Shown here piece after piece: positions 36,303-43,090 of a stretch of 51,674 nt of DNA. The position numbers were made by a program, and so were the translations under genes. Below the pieces are notes generated by a model, which was not told where the DNA came from, did no database searches, and saw nothing but the letters and a program-made list of their open reading frames with translations. The stretch lies in the NCBI GenBank assembly GCA_023621995.1, contig JAMOAB010000021.1, positions 1 through 51,674 of the forward strand. The letters are read 5' to 3'. Source of the stretch: Bacillota bacterium. GTDB taxonomy: Bacteria > Bacillota > Clostridia > Caldicoprobacterales > Xylanivirgaceae. Within the stretch, counting starts at the first letter, position 1. The number at the start of each line of letters is the position of its first letter.

Positions 36303-36331
36303 TTGACAATTTTGTATTAGTTCTATATACT
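36303..36331 (+). promoter_or_regulatory. Consensus sigma-A promoter of the mgtA unit
   Basis: A perfect -35 TTGACA (36303-36308), a 17-base spacer, and TATACT (36326-36331). Initiation is predicted near 36338, just before the M-box aptamer. Confidence 0.85.
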
Positions 36332-36352: not shown

Positions 36353-36500
36353 ACCTCGGTAGGTGAGGCTACTGCAAGGATATGGATTGCTGCCGTGAAG
36401 AGGTGGAAACACCTCAAACTGGTCAGAAGGTTCTGCCGACAAGGCTTAACCTAATGCAATTTTGATGCCTTGCAGAGCCAAAGCTTGGACGGAAAGGATA
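36353..36500 (+). promoter_or_regulatory. M-box (ykoK) magnesium riboswitch aptamer
   Basis: Conserved M-box segments occur in order: GGTAGGTGAGGCTACTGC (matching GUUAGGUGAGGCUCCU), the core TTGCTGCCGTGAAGAGG, CTGGTCAGAAGG, CCTAATGCAA, and CAGAGCCAAAGCTTGG (matching AGUGCUAAAGC). M-box RNAs fold on several Mg2+ ions and switch off Mg2+ transporter genes when Mg2+ is plentiful. The Mg2+ P-type ATPase gene lies downstream, as expected. The 3' segment GCCAAAGCTTG (36477-36487) is perfectly complementary to CAAGCTTTGGC (36524-36534), which is the loop and descending arm of the following terminator. This gives a clear antiterminator/terminator switch. Confidence 0.93.
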
Positions 36501-36507
36501 CGAATAT

Positions 36508-36553
36508 AAACCTTCGCCATGTTCAAGCTTTGGCGGAGGTTTTAAACTTTTTT
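36508..36553 (+). terminator. Riboswitch-controlled terminator (M-box expression platform)
   Basis: Stem AAACCTTCGCCA / TGGCGGAGGTTT (36508-36519, 36531-36542, one G-U pair) with an 11-base loop and a TTTTTT run at 36548-36553. Pairing of 36477-36487 with 36524-36534 would destroy this hairpin, allowing transcription when Mg2+ is low. Confidence 0.88.
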
Positions 36554-36566
36554 GGAGGTGAGAAGG

Positions 36567-36656
36567 ATGGATCCTGGGAGCAGTTGTACTAACAGTAGAT
36601 ATATAGAATATGTATATAGAGGTCATGCCTTTGGATGGAGTCCATCCTTCTATTAG
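36567..36656 (+). CDS. Unannotated 29-residue small ORF between riboswitch and mgtA
   Basis: ATG 36567 follows an excellent ribosome binding site (GGAGGTGA, 36554-36561, five bases before the ATG) right after the terminator T-run. It reads 29 codons to TAG 36654-36656; the product starts MDPGSSCTNSRYIEYVY and ends RGHAFGWSPSFY. It is soluble, aromatic-rich and has one Cys; I do not recognise it. Its last codons overlap a hairpin (GGATGG-AGT-CCATCC, 36633-36647) that competes with a larger pairing to 36662-36672. It may be a leader peptide controlling mgtA, or a small regulator of the pump. It is too short for ordinary gene callers, so coding status is unproven. Confidence 0.55.
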   Translation: MDPGSSCTNSRYIEYVYRGHAFGWSPSFY

Positions 36657-36837
36657 GATAGTCCATTGGCATAACTGATCTATGTTTCATTTCTATAAAT
36701 CTGCTGTCTTCTAAATGTAAGCATTTCTTTTACTGTTGTGGTTGTTAAACTCTATTTTTGGAAAGATATATTTAAGAGTTGGGATGAGACTATACAGATC
36801 ATCCTAGGTCAGTTATTGCTATTTGGAGGTGTTAAAA

Positions 36838-39495
36838 ATGAGAAGAGGAGTAAAAAACAGGATAGAGATAGATAGGGCAAAATCATTAAAGATAACCGAA
36901 AATCTATTTAAGATATCAGAGCAAAATATTGGGGATGTATTTCGAGATTTAAACACATCTGAAAAGGGAATTAGTAGCGAAGATGCAGAGGGCAGGCTTG
37001 AGTATTATGGTATAAATGAGGTGGCAACTGAAAAGCCAGATCCTTGGTATATTCAACTTGCCAAGGCATTTATAGATCCATTTATCCTAGTACTTTTAGC
37101 TATAGCTATTATTTCCCTTATAACCGATGTGGCACTTGTTGCACCAGAAGATAGGAGTTTTGAGACTGTAATCGTAATTACCATTATGGTAACTATTAGT
37201 GTATTCCTACGTTTCTTTCAGGAATATAGATCCAATAGGGCAGCAGATCAATTAAAAGAATTAGTCCACACGACTGCTGCTGTAGTAAGGAGTGATATGG
37301 GCAAGCGGGAGATAGATATGGATATAATAGTGCCTGGTGACATTGTGCACATTGCAGCAGGAGATATGATACCAGCAGATATGAGGATTATATCGGCAAA
37401 GGATTTATTTATAAGTGAATCGTCACTTACAGGCGAATCTATTCCTGTAGAAAAGCATGCTACAACAATGGATTGGACTGAAAGAGACAGAAATATAGCG
37501 GATATTGAAAATATCTGTTTTTTAGGCACGAATGTAATAAGTGGTTCAGCTATAGGCGTAGTCATCGGTACAGGTGACAATACTTATCTAGGCTCCATGG
37601 CAAAGTCTCTTGTGGGACAGCGTGCCCAAACCAGCTTTGATGAGGGTGTAAATAGTGTAAGTTGGCTTCTGATTAAATTTATGATGGTAATGGTGCCCAT
37701 AGTATTTCTCATAAATGGTATTACTAAAGGAGATTGGCTACAGGCTCTTTTATTTGCCATATCTATTGCTGTAGGTCTGACTCCTGAAATGCTTCCTATG
37801 ATAGTTACTAGTAATCTTGCCAAGGGTGCCATGACAATGGCAAAGAAAAAGACTGTCGTAAAACAGTTGAGTGCTATTCAAAACTTTGGTGCCATGGATA
37901 TACTATGTACAGATAAGACGGGAACCCTTACCATGGACAAGATTGTACTCGAGAGATATTTGGATGTACATGGAAATGAAGATGAGAGGATACTTAGGCA
38001 CGCTTATCTCAATAGCTACTTTCAAACAGGGCTTAAGAACCTCATGGACTTGGCGGTAATAGAATATGGAGATGAAAAGGGCTTAGATTATCTGAAAGAT
38101 GCCTACATTAAAGTTGATGAAATTCCCTTTGATTTCGAAAGGCGTAGGATGTCGGTTATACTAGAAGATAAAAATAAAAAAAGGCAGCTAGTTACAAAGG
38201 GAGCGGTAGAGGAGATGCTATCTATCTGTAGCTATGCCGAATATGAAGGGGAAGTCATCACTTTAACAGATGATATTAGAGAAAAGATAATGGAGACCAC
38301 ACAAGAACTCAATCTAGACGGAATGAGAGTTCTCGCTGTAGCCCAGAAAAATGAAATCCCCTACGATAGGGAGTTTAGTGTAGAAGATGAGAGGGATATG
38401 GTACTCATAGGCTATATAGGTTTTCTAGATCCTCCAAAGGATTCAGCTATCCACGCCATACAGGCCCTTAACGAACATGGAGTAGAGGTAAAGGTATTGA
38501 CGGGTGATAATGAGTTTGTTACACAGAAAATATGCAAGGAGGTTGGGCTACCCTTTGAGCACATTGTATTAGGACATGAAGTAGATGATATGACCGACGA
38601 AGAACTTGCATATGAGGCAGAAAACACCACCATATTTGCCAAACTATCTCCTCTGCAGAAAGCTAGAGTAATAAATGTGCTTCAAGATAGGGGGCATACA
38701 GTAGGATATCTCGGTGATGGTATAAATGATGCTGCAGCCCTTAGAGAATCGGATATTGGCATATCGGTAGATAATGCGGTAGATATTGCCAAAGAGTCTG
38801 CAGATATAATTTTATTAGAGAAGAGCCTTATGGTATTAGAAGAAGGGGTTGTAGAAGGACGCAAGATATTCGGAAATATAATAAAGTATATAAAGATGAC
38901 AGTGAGCTCTAACTTTGGTAATGTATTTAGCGTGCTGGTGGCGAGTGCATTTTTACCGTTTTTGCCCATGTTACCTATTCACTTGCTTATACAAAATTTA
39001 TTATATGATATATCTCAGATAGCTATTCCTTGGGACACTATGGATGAAGAATATCTGAGGAAGCCAAGGCAGTGGGATGCCAGTAGTATAGGGCAATTTA
39101 TGGTATATATAGGTCCAATAAGTTCAATATTTGATATTGTGACCTATCTTGTAATGTGGTTTGTATTCAAGGCAAATGCACCAGAAGTTCAAGGACTCTT
39201 TCATTCTGGTTGGTTTATAATTGGGCTTCTTACACAGACTTTGGTTGTCCATATGCTAAGGACCGAGAAGATACCCTTTATTCAGAGCAGAGCAACACTA
39301 CCTGTAATGATTATGACAGTAGTTATAATGGCAATAGGTATCTATATCCCATTTTCTCCATTGGGTGCCTCTATAGGATTTGAACCACTACCATCGTCAT
39401 ACTTTCCATGGATGATTGGTATTGTAGTTTCATATTGCGTAGTTACCCAATTTGTAAAGATGTGGTATATCAAAAAGTTTGACGAGTGGTTATAG
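36838..39495 (+). CDS. mgtA: Magnesium-importing P-type ATPase (P3B, MgtA type)
   Basis: An 885-residue membrane pump that imports Mg2+ under limitation. Landmarks are the N-terminal cation ATPase domain (GISSEDAEGRLEYYGINEV), the actuator SSLTGESIPVEK, the TM4 motif VGLTPEMLPMIV typical of MgtA/MgtB, the phosphorylation site LCTDKTGTLTMD (Asp about 359), KGAVEEM, KVLTGDN, the hinge YLGDGINDAAALRESDIGIS, and TM6 LIQNLLYDISQIAIPWD, which is the MgtA-specific ion-site sequence. ATG 36838 is chosen because TTGGAGGTG lies eight bases upstream; an upstream TTG is unsupported. The M-box riboswitch, the small ORF and a downstream terminator define its transcription unit. It is intact and of family length. 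Confidence 0.96.
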   Translation: MRRGVKNRIEIDRAKSLKITENLFKISEQNIGDVFRDLNTSEKGISSEDAEGRLEYYGINEVATEKPDPWYIQLAKAFIDPFILVLLAIAIISLITDVALVAPEDRSFETVIVITIMVTISVFLRFFQEYRSNRAADQLKELVHTTAAVVRSDMGKREIDMDIIVPGDIVHIAAGDMIPADMRIISAKDLFISESSLTGESIPVEKHATTMDWTERDRNIADIENICFLGTNVISGSAIGVVIGTGDNTYLGSMAKSLVGQRAQTSFDEGVNSVSWLLIKFMMVMVPIVFLINGITKGDWLQALLFAISIAVGLTPEMLPMIVTSNLAKGAMTMAKKKTVVKQLSAIQNFGAMDILCTDKTGTLTMDKIVLERYLDVHGNEDERILRHAYLNSYFQTGLKNLMDLAVIEYGDEKGLDYLKDAYIKVDEIPFDFERRRMSVILEDKNKKRQLVTKGAVEEMLSICSYAEYEGEVITLTDDIREKIMETTQELNLDGMRVLAVAQKNEIPYDREFSVEDERDMVLIGYIGFLDPPKDSAIHAIQALNEHGVEVKVLTGDNEFVTQKICKEVGLPFEHIVLGHEVDDMTDEELAYEAENTTIFAKLSPLQKARVINVLQDRGHTVGYLGDGINDAAALRESDIGISVDNAVDIAKESADIILLEKSLMVLEEGVVEGRKIFGNIIKYIKMTVSSNFGNVFSVLVASAFLPFLPMLPIHLLIQNLLYDISQIAIPWDTMDEEYLRKPRQWDASSIGQFMVYIGPISSIFDIVTYLVMWFVFKANAPEVQGLFHSGWFIIGLLTQTLVVHMLRTEKIPFIQSRATLPVMIMTVVIMAIGIYIPFSPLGASIGFEPLPSSYFPWMIGIVVSYCVVTQFVKMWYIKKFDEWL

Positions 39496-39652: not shown

Positions 39653-39690
39653 ATAATGTATTGTTTGTCTGCATACATTATGTTAAAATA
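39653..39690 (+). promoter_or_regulatory. Probable cas-operon promoter with operator-like inverted repeat
   Basis: TTGTTT (39661-39666) and TAAAAT (39685-39690) are 18 bases apart, a plausible sigma-A promoter for the WYL regulator and cas genes. A perfect dyad ATAATGTA / TACATTAT (39653-39660, 39674-39681) embraces the -35 box, as expected for autoregulation by the adjacent WYL protein. Confidence 0.5.
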
Positions 39691-39706
39691 TACCCAAGGT
39701 GATGAT

Positions 39707-40690
39707 ATGGGTAAATTTTCAAATATGTTAAAAATTCTATCACTATTGCAGACTGAAGATATCCTCACTACTAACGAAATAGCAAATTACTTGAATATCA
39801 GCCAGAGAAACGTCAAAGCATATATACAGACACTTAAGGAAGCTAACATACCTATTAGAGGTATTAGCGGTCGATCGGGAGGTGTATATCTCTCTGAGGA
39901 TTATTATCTGTATCCTCCTAGGCTAGATAAAAAAGAGTATGAAGCCCTATTGTTGGCAGAAGATATTTTGACAAAGGAGAATGGCTTTGTATATGAAGGT
40001 GAATATAAGACAGCCCTATCCAAGATTAAATGGGCCATGGGTATGACGGCACCGCGTATTGGCTATTTGGGTTCAGATGCTAATATATATAGCCAGGGTC
40101 CATTTGATATTTGTGATGACTCCATGGTAAAGAATAGATTATTATATACAAGGCAGGCAATTAAAAATAGGAATAGATTGCGACTACTCTATTATACTCC
40201 TAATAAAAAAGAGCTCAAATGGCGAGATATAGATCCATATGGCATAATCAATCGCAATTTTTCATGGTATCTAGTAGGTTACTGCCATCTAAGATCTGAC
40301 ATTCGCGTCTTCAAAGTGATTAGAATTAAAGAATTACATGTCTTAGAAGATACATTTGAATATCCAGAAGATTTTTCAACAGAAAAATACATGGAAAACA
40401 TATTAGATATGATACAGGGTGCTGAATATAATGTAAAAATCAAATTTTTTCACCCAGCTTCTACGTGGGTGGAAGAGCGCATGTGGCTACCATCTCAAAA
40501 GATTACTAGAATGGAAGACGATTCTATAATATTCGAAGGAAAAGTAAAGGGTTTGACAGATATAAAAAGATGGGTGATGGGATACGGAAGATTGGCTAGG
40601 GTCATTGAGCCTAAGAAGCTCAAAGATGCCATCTTTGAGGAGGCGTCATATCTATTACAACAGTATGAGGAGAATGATGAATGCGAATAA
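39707..40690 (+). CDS. HTH/WYL-domain transcriptional regulator of the CRISPR locus
   Basis: A 327-residue regulator. The N-terminus holds a winged helix-turn-helix of the DeoR/HTH_11 type (MLKILSLLQTEDILTTNEIA then NYLNISQRNVKAYIQTLKEA). The middle and C-terminal part is a WYL domain (NRLRLLYYTPNKKELKWRDI with DPYGIINRNFSWYLVGYCHL; the WYL triad is present as WYL) followed by a WCX-like extension (HPASTWVEERMWLPSQKITR). WYL domains bind nucleic acid or nucleotide ligands, and such regulators often control CRISPR or other defence genes. ATG 39707 follows AAGGTGATG; upstream in-frame ATGs lack a ribosome binding site. It overlaps cas6 by 10 bases, so it is part of the cas operon. Confidence 0.9.
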   Translation: MGKFSNMLKILSLLQTEDILTTNEIANYLNISQRNVKAYIQTLKEANIPIRGISGRSGGVYLSEDYYLYPPRLDKKEYEALLLAEDILTKENGFVYEGEYKTALSKIKWAMGMTAPRIGYLGSDANIYSQGPFDICDDSMVKNRLLYTRQAIKNRNRLRLLYYTPNKKELKWRDIDPYGIINRNFSWYLVGYCHLRSDIRVFKVIRIKELHVLEDTFEYPEDFSTEKYMENILDMIQGAEYNVKIKFFHPASTWVEERMWLPSQKITRMEDDSIIFEGKVKGLTDIKRWVMGYGRLARVIEPKKLKDAIFEEASYLLQQYEENDECE

Positions 40691-41442
40691 TGATAAAGTT
40701 AAATTCACCGATCCCACAGCTATTGGAATACAACTACAATCACTATTTGAATGGTTTTCTATACAATATGATTGGAAAATCCAATGTTGAAATTTCCACT
40801 AAATTACATAATGAAGGTTATCAGGCTAAGGGGAAACCAATAAAGCCTTTGGTGTTTTCTAGACTATATTTTGACAATAGAAAGGCTACAAAGAGAGGTT
40901 TAATAGTAGAGGGAGAGGGAAGATGGTTTGTATCATCCCTTTATGAAGAGTTACTTTTGGCTTTCGTAAGTAGTACTGCACAGCAGTATAAAATGACTGT
41001 AGGTGATGTATCATTTTTAATTGAAGAAGTACAGATTATGCGAAAACCTAAATTCACTGAAGATATGGACTTTACCATGTTATCTCCCACCGTTGCTCCT
41101 AAGAGAATACCTGAGCAAAATAATAGACTGAAATTTTGTCATCCCATGGAAAATGAATTCTATGATATATTGAGGGACAATATCCTGCGAAAATATAGCC
41201 TTATATATGGAGTTCATTACAGTGGAGATAGGTCAATAAACTTTTCTGTCACATATCCAGAAGAGATGGATATGGAAAAGGCTGCATGCCTAATCAGATA
41301 TAGGGGACAGAATATAAAGTGCTATATGTTTCCAATAACCCTAACGGGGGATCCAAAGCTCATTGAATTATGTTATGAGCTGGGGCTTGGAAGTTACAAT
41401 ATTCAAGGTTTTGGAATGTTAGAGCATGTTGAAAGGGGGTGA
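40681..41442 (+). CDS. cas6: Cas6 crRNA-processing endoribonuclease
   Basis: A 253-residue RAMP-fold RNase that cuts the repeat RNA to make crRNAs with an 8-nt 5' handle (here predicted AUUGAAAU). The N-terminal LPQLLEYNYNHYLNGFLYNM-like segment (IPQLLEYNYNHYLNGFLYNM) is the first ferredoxin fold with the usual His region. KFTEDMDFTMLSPTVAPKRI is the middle motif ('LSP', common to Cas6). The C-terminus ends with the glycine-rich loop GLGSYNIQGFGMLE (about residues 233-247), the RNA-contacting G-loop. Cas6 active-site residues vary; His44 or nearby Lys/Tyr are possible. It starts inside the WYL gene's end. Confidence 0.95.
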   Translation: MRIMIKLNSPIPQLLEYNYNHYLNGFLYNMIGKSNVEISTKLHNEGYQAKGKPIKPLVFSRLYFDNRKATKRGLIVEGEGRWFVSSLYEELLLAFVSSTAQQYKMTVGDVSFLIEEVQIMRKPKFTEDMDFTMLSPTVAPKRIPEQNNRLKFCHPMENEFYDILRDNILRKYSLIYGVHYSGDRSINFSVTYPEEMDMEKAACLIRYRGQNIKCYMFPITLTGDPKLIELCYELGLGSYNIQGFGMLEHVERG

Positions 41443-41446
41443 GAGT

Positions 41447-43090
41447 ATGGAACTGTTGATAGAATTAACTGGCGATCCATGGTACGATAGGGGTGCTATA
41501 AACCTATATAGTAAACTGAGGGGTAGACCTGTGTTTGACAGTTCACGCTCGTATATCTTAGACAATGAGGTGTACATTGCTTTTAATGGGACTAAAGAAG
41601 AGATAGCTGACACCATCTATGGGATTCTAAAACAGAGTATAAATGATATGGCGCTATTACCTCCGGAACTAAAAATGATAGAACATACAGTTAAATATGA
41701 TGACGATGGTTTTGTTGCCTTTAAGACGGAAGTAGATATGGAGCCACATATGGAAAAGCTCAAGGAAAGGCTTTCTAATGTACCAAAGAAATCACAATAT
41801 AGTCTACTTCGCAATTATGTAGGTATAAGGCAGGATATACTGCGGTTGCGGAATAATCATGTTAAAGATGTGGACAAATTCGTAGCTTGTATTTCGGAGG
41901 ACTTTACATCGAATAAATTGTGTCCCGTATGTAATAGGCAATATAATACAAAGACTAAAGATAGTATGACACAAAATAAAAATCCTTTCTATAATCAACA
42001 CCATAATGTGCCAATACGAGGAGCATTAGGCAGTCTTGCCACAGGAGAGATGTGTGCTGTATGTAACTTGGTAAATATATTTGCTGCACTGGATCCAAAT
42101 ACACCTTATTTTATAGATAACAGATATACCAATATATTTTTACCAATTCTGCCTAGTTTCAATCTAATAGAGAAGACGAGACAAAATTTAAATACTGGGA
42201 ATAATTTGGAAGATATGCGAGCTCTACCTAAGTTGTCGTATGGTACCAATGTCGTAAGTTTAAAGCATAGAGATGTATATAATACACTTATTGCACTATA
42301 TTATAGTATGCTATATAAATATTCTCCTGAAAAGGAAGAATATATCTATTTTCCCGTTATAAACGAACTAGAACAGCGGGAGATCAGCGACTGGGTTGTG
42401 TGTCGCTATAGGAAGGGAAGAAACGTAATATTTGGACCTTTTTCGCATATAAATGTACACTCTAATATATTCAAATTAGTAGAGGAGTTACCGCTAGACG
42501 ACAATTCCATTGATACAGGGAATATATTCATAGATTTTCTAAACCAGATATACTCTGATGATTCCAATATAGTAGAAGGATTAGCAAAAGGCGTAGTGTA
42601 TAGTGATATTTACATTATTGCAAGGAATATATTTATGCTCTATAAAGAAGGTTGTAGTCGGGATAATATTACATATAGGGCTTTAAGATTTTTCTCTGTA
42701 TTTATGGAAAAATTTATGGAGGTGAATGATTTGTTAGACGCTACTTTATCAGAAGATTTGAAGGTATTTGGTAGGATGGTGGGCCAGTATTTCCCCACTG
42801 ATATTGCAACAATGACTGAGATTTCCAACGTCACAAATACAATGCAGTTTAAGAAGGCAATAAGTAATATACTCTTTAAGATGTTTAAATTATCGGCTTC
42901 AGAGGGTAATGTGCTAGATGAACAATGGATAATTGGAGAGAATAGGGTGACTAATATTTTAAATCAGGTCAACTCACAAAATCTGTCAGAGGCAAAGGAT
43001 GTATTGCTTATATATGCCTGCCTGTCTGCCATGAGAGAGAGCAAGGTTAAGCGAAGTGCTACTAAAAAAGAGGAGGTTTCAGTTAAATGA
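41447..43090 (+). CDS. cas8b1: Cas8b1/Cst1, large subunit of the type I-B Cascade
   Basis: A 547-residue protein of the CXXC-CXXC large-subunit family (Cst1/Cas8b1, Tneap variant). The two defining zinc-finger-like pairs are present: NKLCPVCNRQ and GEMCAVCNLV, about 42 residues apart. The N-terminus opens with LLIELTGDPWYDRGAINLYS. Cas8 recognises the PAM and joins Cas5/Cas7/crRNA. The C-terminal helical part (about 430-547) may serve as the small subunit. ATG 41447 is used since GGGGGTGA precedes it. It overlaps cas7 by four bases, indicating translational coupling. Confidence 0.93.
   Translation: MELLIELTGDPWYDRGAINLYSKLRGRPVFDSSRSYILDNEVYIAFNGTKEEIADTIYGILKQSINDMALLPPELKMIEHTVKYDDDGFVAFKTEVDMEPHMEKLKERLSNVPKKSQYSLLRNYVGIRQDILRLRNNHVKDVDKFVACISEDFTSNKLCPVCNRQYNTKTKDSMTQNKNPFYNQHHNVPIRGALGSLATGEMCAVCNLVNIFAALDPNTPYFIDNRYTNIFLPILPSFNLIEKTRQNLNTGNNLEDMRALPKLSYGTNVVSLKHRDVYNTLIALYYSMLYKYSPEKEEYIYFPVINELEQREISDWVVCRYRKGRNVIFGPFSHINVHSNIFKLVEELPLDDNSIDTGNIFIDFLNQIYSDDSNIVEGLAKGVVYSDIYIIARNIFMLYKEGCSRDNITYRALRFFSVFMEKFMEVNDLLDATLSEDLKVFGRMVGQYFPTDIATMTEISNVTNTMQFKKAISNILFKMFKLSASEGNVLDEQWIIGENRVTNILNQVNSQNLSEAKDVLLIYACLSAMRESKVKRSATKKEEVSVK

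Follow-up and report, generated by a model that had tools for sequence, protein, structure and literature searches.

The 29-codon open reading frame (ORF) at positions 36567-36656 of the window, that is, of the whole 51,674-nucleotide stretch of DNA analysed, is probably a translated, cis-acting regulatory leader peptide (uORF), a Bacillota counterpart of MgtL that would act in series behind the M-box of mgtA by switching between two alternative RNA helices, 1:2 and 2:3. The ORF is not an isolated case, since most Bacillota M-box loci carry a comparable one. Comparison of these loci shows the uORF, selection on its first ten residues only and both helices, whereas Mg2+-dependent ribosome drop-off, the switch direction and, for the window, the output step are inferred by analogy with known leaders.

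All window features given here lie on the forward (+) strand. Upstream of the leader, a scan against the consensus alone gives a promoter-like TTGACA-17-TATACT (36303-36331) with 11 of 12 consensus matches. The sole Rfam match in the window is a full-length M-box Mg2+ riboswitch aptamer (RF00380, 36348-36503), which cmscan scores at 116.5 bits (E 1.9e-25) against a gathering score of 44. Two further elements were read from the sequence: an intrinsic terminator (36508-36553), in which an 11-bp stem with one G-U pair (36508-36518/36532-36542) is followed by a T-rich run, and an antiterminator arm, GCCAAAGCTTGGAC (36477-36490), complementary to 36521-36534 over 14 bp with one G-U pair and mutually exclusive with the terminator. 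The terminator occupies the position of those behind other M-boxes, and aptamer and terminator are ordinary M-box parts. In M-boxes, RNA polymerase gets past the terminator at low Mg2+; as a member of the class, the M-box of the window would be expected to switch termination upon Mg2+ binding. The standard description of such elements, for example that of Bacillus subtilis mgtE/ykoK, stops at the terminator, whereas in the window a putatively translated ORF and alternative folds come after it. The Shine-Dalgarno sequence (SD) of this ORF, GGAGGTGA (36554-36561), an 8-nt anti-SD match at good spacing, starts where the U-run of the terminator stops. The ORF runs from ATG to TAG and encodes MDPGSSCTNSRYIEYVYRGHAFGWSPSFY; the mgtA ATG (36838) follows after 181 nt. 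The initial annotation had described an ORF with a near-perfect ribosome binding site at this place between terminator and mgtA, and both the position and the 8-nt SD were confirmed. The mgtA gene itself (36838-39495), preceded by the SD GGAGGTG (36825-36831, read from the sequence), encodes an 885-aa Mg2+-translocating P-type ATPase (TIGR01524; 1341 bits, cut-off 611).

How common such ORFs are was assessed with M-boxes gathered from a class-level set of 391 genomes and a phylum-level set of 398, which gave 222 M-box loci with a gene, 212 of them non-redundant (Clostridia and other Bacillota). One ORF was picked per locus by SD strength and start codon only, because picking by peptide was to be avoided. 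An SD-led small ORF lies between M-box and transporter gene in 166 of the 212 loci, including all 34 with an MgtA gene; about one fifth of the M-box loci have none, CorA and MgtE loci of some families among them. Asp or Glu occupies codon 2 in 112 of the 166 ORFs, usually followed by Pro, Gly, Ser or Asp (MDSGPLP.., MDCDPD.., MEAGSSS.. and, in the window, MDPGSSC..). Among these 112 peptides, residue 4 is Gly or Asp in 78, residue 5 is proline in 57, and 102 have Pro or a further acidic residue within residues 3-8. The corresponding counts for an acidic codon 2 in the controls are 3.4 of 61 ORFs in shuffled leaders, none of nine ORFs in SAM-riboswitch leaders (30 loci), 30 of 212 downstream transporter genes themselves and 8 of 50 mgtA loci that lack an M-box. 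The N-terminal pattern is common to leaders of the unrelated transporters MgtA, MgtE and CorA, and ORF lengths range from 14 to 67 aa; a Pfam search with five leader peptides matched no family. Many peptides of the mgtA class are rich in Gly and Ser rather than in acidic residues and Pro, which makes the destabilising chemistry uncertain. The first eight residues in the window hold one acidic residue and one proline (D2-P3), a weaker acidic/Pro content than that of the EPDP of MgtL.

The source genome comprises 3.08 Mb in 175 contigs. The collection contains a single congener, and the mgtA of the window was not found in it; the whole window leader, used as a DNA query against relatives, returned only weak M-box matches. 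Because no close relative with this mgtA leader was present among the genomes searched, selection was measured in other groups and not on the window ORF. The other readable M-boxes of the order precede mgtE, not mgtA. The search for the ORF between M-box and mgtA elsewhere, which the initial annotation had suggested, found counterparts: among 15 loci with MgtA relatives and an M-box upstream (Clostridium, Caloramator, Paenibacillus, Brevibacillus, Desulfosporosinus and others), all 15 have a small ORF behind the terminator of the M-box, and with few exceptions its SD is strong. Examples are MEVDGSSLDGED.. in C. senegalense, MEAGSSSIGSGG.. in C. cadaveris and MDSSSRSCHYH.. in Paenibacillus. M-boxes before mgtE likewise have such ORFs (MVDPGPLPSLC.., MDYPDPLPCSK..). 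Indeed, a second M-box in the genome of the window, ahead of an mgtE gene, is accompanied by an ORF beginning VGTDSDSWPKS.., and the congener has MNTDTDSWPRY.. behind its own mgtE M-box, where synonymous changes and a small number of replacements separate the two genomes. Some loci depart from the simple arrangement: L181 carries two successive uORFs of the M-box-leader kind (MESGSDSMVYGE.. and MDFDPLPSNFNEK..) before an mgtE-like gene, and L112 and L133 (G232 contig 7, 106258-108225) are two M-boxes on the same strand less than 2 kb apart.

Selection on the peptide was assessed by counting pN/pS in 15 groups of related leaders. Codons 2-10 gave 0.21 in frame, against 1.54 and 1.59 in the +1 and +2 frames, and codons 11 to the end gave 0.79, against 0.93 and 0.69, all of these figures being descriptive counts since sequence pairs are not independent. 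Because pN/pS is low in frame for codons 2-10 only, the first ten residues are kept as a peptide and the remainder is not. The synonymous-substitution comparison proposed in the initial annotation thus indicates frame-specific purifying selection on codons 2-10 in the 15 groups, to which the window ORF does not belong. The emphasis that had been placed on the aromatic C-terminus turns out to be misplaced, the conserved part of the peptide being the N-terminus.

The second half of the ORF appears to matter as RNA. The two mutually exclusive hairpins reported earlier at its 3' end are both present, namely GGATGG-AGT-CCATCC (36633-36647), within the 3' end of the ORF, and a hairpin in which ATGCC/TGGA pairs with TCCA/GGCAT (36625-36639/36662-36672) and excludes the former. 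However, the most informative pairing in the leader is a 12-bp helix between ORF start and ORF end, 1:2, in which region 1 (AGAAGGATGGAT, 36561-36572), comprising the end of the SD, the start codon and codon 2, pairs without mismatch with region 2 (GTCCATCCTTCT, 36640-36651), the last codons of the ORF; the duplex is calculated at -21.8 kcal/mol (z -2.9). Region 2 may alternatively pair within 36633-36647 or within the long hairpin 2:3 (36592-36707), in which the second half of the ORF, codon 9 to the stop, forms the 5' arm and pairs with the 50 nt past the stop codon. A helix between the SD/start region and the 3' part of the ORF recurs among the folded leaders. Over 105 loci, helix 1:2 has a mean energy of -17.2 kcal/mol, compared with -12.5 (sd 0.27) for duplexes in which region 1 came from another locus, and the excess also holds within the MgtA, MgtE and CorA classes. 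Individual differences are compensated: an A-to-G change before the ATG (window AAGGATGG vs. L259 AAGAATGG) is matched by a T-to-C change in the partner, the pairing of AGAAGGATGGA with TCCATCCTTCT in the window corresponding to that of AGAAGAATGGA with TCCATTCTTCT in L259 and L262. The region that begins at codon 9 and extends 90 nt beyond the stop folds with a z of -5.3 in the window and with a mean z of -3.75 in the MgtA class, 84% of which falls below -2. Applied to one mgtE group, RNAalifold detected a single pair with changes in both partners; with covariation this sparse, the structural case rests on the swap and shuffle controls. Helices 1:2 and 2:3 are predicted folds, well above these controls, which would depend on how far the ORF is translated. 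In L140, the leader past the uORF start contains a hairpin-like unit, read as SLEEMNCGRN in the ORF, in approximately three tandem copies.

The initial proposal of a translation-linked second control layer resembling that of mgtL is therefore supported by comparable ORFs in most Bacillota M-box loci, as well as by protein-level selection on the first ten codons and by the involvement of the rest of the ORF in alternative RNA pairings. It is reasonable to envisage the following course. At low Mg2+, RNA polymerase would pass the M-box terminator, and a ribosome initiating on the uORF would open helix 1:2. If Mg2+ remained low, this ribosome would tend to fall off or pause on the conserved N-terminus (MDPGSSC in the window), leaving the second half of the ORF free to pair past the stop codon (2:3), which would permit mgtA expression. 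With enough Mg2+, the ribosome would reach the stop codon, 2:3 would be blocked, and mgtA would be off. A peptide-conserved N-terminus followed by an RNA-conserved stretch is what would be expected if the decision fell within the first ten codons and were read out by the coverage of region 2. Conservation of the N-terminus through much of the Bacillota suggests a second Mg2+ check, made via the ribosome, before the pump is produced.

The off state might be executed in different ways: some relatives would occlude the start site, a few would use an intrinsic terminator, and the window possibly relies on Rho. Occlusion of the transporter SD by an upstream anti-SD (3:4) has a z below -2 in 62% of L138-type loci (L138 and L275 being reference-locus labels for two transporter groups) and in 36% of MgtA loci. 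In the window, occlusion of the mgtA start site and SD is not significant (z 0.1). Although a rho gene is present in the genome, no C-rich Rho loading site is apparent downstream of the window ORF, where C does not exceed G (0.14 vs. 0.18) except in one 78-nt stretch (16 C, 10 G). With no significant occlusion and no C excess, there is no support for either occlusion or Rho as the output in the window. A second intrinsic terminator between ORF and gene was also considered as a general output device and rejected, as it was found in only 2 of 112 loci and is absent between ORF and mgtA in the window; it is plain in L024 and can be discerned by eye in L018 and L077 as well as in L099 and L100, which lack an M-box. 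In L024, L018 and L077, which are mgtA leaders of Paenibacillus and Brevibacillus, this terminator stands just before mgtA, and the uORF contains a stretch (e.g., CAGGGAGAG in L024) that could pair with the 5' arm of the terminator, in the manner of an antiterminator. L099 and L100, from the order of the window and read on the reverse strand, have an ORF (MDGSPDGLCNI..) approximately 240-260 nt upstream of mgtA, with no M-box detected; it lies close behind a promoter-like TTGACC/TATAAT and is followed by an intrinsic terminator (GCCGTC..GGACGGC-TTTTTT), the 5' arm of which could pair with the first codons of the ORF (GGACGGCA). Judged from these features, the two loci possibly represent a uORF switch that operates in the absence of a riboswitch. 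A conserved element resembling CCTTAGTTT.TTRTTGYCTTTT was also seen directly before the mgtA SD, often behind a variable hairpin, when the last 60 nt before the gene were compared (L005, L006, L007, L009, L010, L011, L015, L259 and 36790-36825 of the window).

The anatomy of the ORF is that of the enterobacterial MgtL and MgtQ leaders, combined with a riboswitch in a different phylum. Like the window ORF, MgtL of E. coli and Salmonella mgtA is a short SD-led ORF upstream of mgtA in a leader with alternative folds, and the start region of E. coli mgtL also pairs with the ORF end (CTTACCGG:CCGGTAAG, overlapping the stop codon). However, no M-box precedes mgtL, the peptides differ in length and C-terminus, and the E. 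coli N-terminus, MEPDPTPLP, is acidic and Pro-rich, whereas the window peptide has a single acidic residue. Because the peptides are short and resemble each other only in the N-terminal pattern, we do not propose descent from mgtL; convergence is as likely. In MgtL, ribosomes reportedly drop off on early acidic and Pro residues, and more so at low Mg2+ (PMC11282234, PMC11552253); this literature cites Chadani 2017 for drop-off on such residues. In MgtQ, encoded by 8 codons upstream of Salmonella mgtB, drop-off on early acidic and Pro residues is likewise reported, and early D/E residues make full translation less frequent and increase transporter expression (PMC8092293). In both systems, failure to finish the ORF reportedly raises transporter expression (PMC8092293, PMC11282234, PMC11552253). 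MgtQ shares the scheme of stem-loops 1:2 and 3:4 vs. 2:3, and its start-site occlusion resembles that in several MgtE-like and mgtA loci studied here; unlike the window ORF, MgtQ is intergenic within an operon and has no riboswitch, and its 3:4 occlusion has no significant equivalent in the window. CorL, the leader ORF of enterobacterial corA, is also a uORF in a Mg2+ transporter leader, and its translation is inversely related to corA expression, with involvement of Rho (PMC11552253), but it has no M-box, few acidic or Pro residues and different hosts. The nearest earlier description is that of rv1805A/uORF2 behind the Mycobacterium tuberculosis pe20 M-box (PMC12810186, 2026), a conserved small ORF downstream of an M-box, as in Bacillota, with a conserved N-terminus, an invariant proline and Rho-dependent termination. 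That study calls the peptide mycobacteria-specific and has the M-box control the uORF via a translational platform; the Bacillota ORFs are absent from it. No earlier report of the latter was found in the open PMC literature searched, and subscription papers may have noticed them.

Other readings of the leader should be weighed. Salmonella mgtP is an example of attenuation by ribosome stalling, and the ribosome here might similarly stall under a shortage of charged tRNA (Pro, Gly or Ser) or of EF-P, without itself being a Mg2+ sensor. Proline occurs within residues 3-8 in 78 of the 112 peptides, and MgtL has been explained via its proline codons (Gall et al. 2016, as cited in PMC11552253). We nonetheless consider such attenuation unlikely: 34 of the 112 peptides, including most of the mgtA class, have no proline there, consecutive prolines are rare, and the most constant feature, D/E at residue 2, is not explained by amino-acid attenuation. 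Rather less likely is that only the act of translation matters, through shielding from Rho or RNase or through coupling, and that the peptide sequence is irrelevant. The lack of protein conservation past codon 10, the strong SD, the rho gene and the translation-coupled Rho control known for mgtA and corA (PMC11552253) would suit such a mechanism, but they leave unexplained the protein-level constraint on codons 2-10 (pN/pS 0.21) and the D/E, Pro, Gly and Ser residues common to transporter classes and genera.

The initial annotation had also offered a small pump partner like MgtR; put more broadly, the ORF would encode a small functional protein made with the pump, for instance a membrane partner of the MgtR, MgtS or MgtU type. 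Although the ORF adjoins mgtA and some C-termini are hydrophobic, this seems very improbable, as the same N-terminal pattern stands ahead of unrelated MgtA, MgtE and CorA genes. A peptide of the MgtR/MgtS type would be expected to be conserved over its full length and to have a hydrophobic helix, whereas codons 11 to the end evolve here no differently from the other frames; an MgtR-like partner was rejected on this absence of protein-level selection after codon 10, together with the length range and the lack of a Pfam match. Short ORFs are common, and one could arise by chance in a structured leader. For the ORF class this is already refuted, and for the window ORF it is the least probable reading: of 2000 dinucleotide shuffles of the leader, only 9 contained an ORF that began with ATG, reached 20 codons or more and was led by an SD of 7 nt or longer, and a single one of these also had D/E at codon 2; the frequency of D/E at codon 2 among the natural ORFs (112 of 166) and the frame-specific selection argue likewise.

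With a regulatory uORF as the preferred reading, we lean, by a little, towards a broader arrangement across Bacillota, in which two Mg2+ sensors would act serially, the M-box aptamer and then a nascent-peptide/ribosome sensor encoded by the uORF, with an mgtA subtype (M[DE]xGSSS) using Gly and Ser in place of Pro and acidic residues. An M-box is regarded as a complete switch, with the terminator as its end. If this arrangement exists, M-box and uORF would together act as an AND gate, and a ribosome-based Mg2+ sensor would be far more widespread than the enterobacterial examples suggest. If most Bacillota M-boxes precede a translated sensor, reporter studies that kept or dropped the part behind the terminator would need re-reading, a family of at least a hundred small genes would have been missed by genome annotation, and ribosome destabilisation by early nascent chains would be a general bacterial Mg2+ gauge. 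The arrangement also offers a candidate explanation for the mycobacterial M-box peptide.

Downstream of mgtA, the window holds a Cas6 gene (40681-41442, + strand; TIGR01877, 116 bits), flanked by a regulator-like ORF (39656-40690) and by a 554-aa ORF (41426-43090) that has no NCBIfam match. This neighbourhood is perhaps the edge of a CRISPR-Cas locus.
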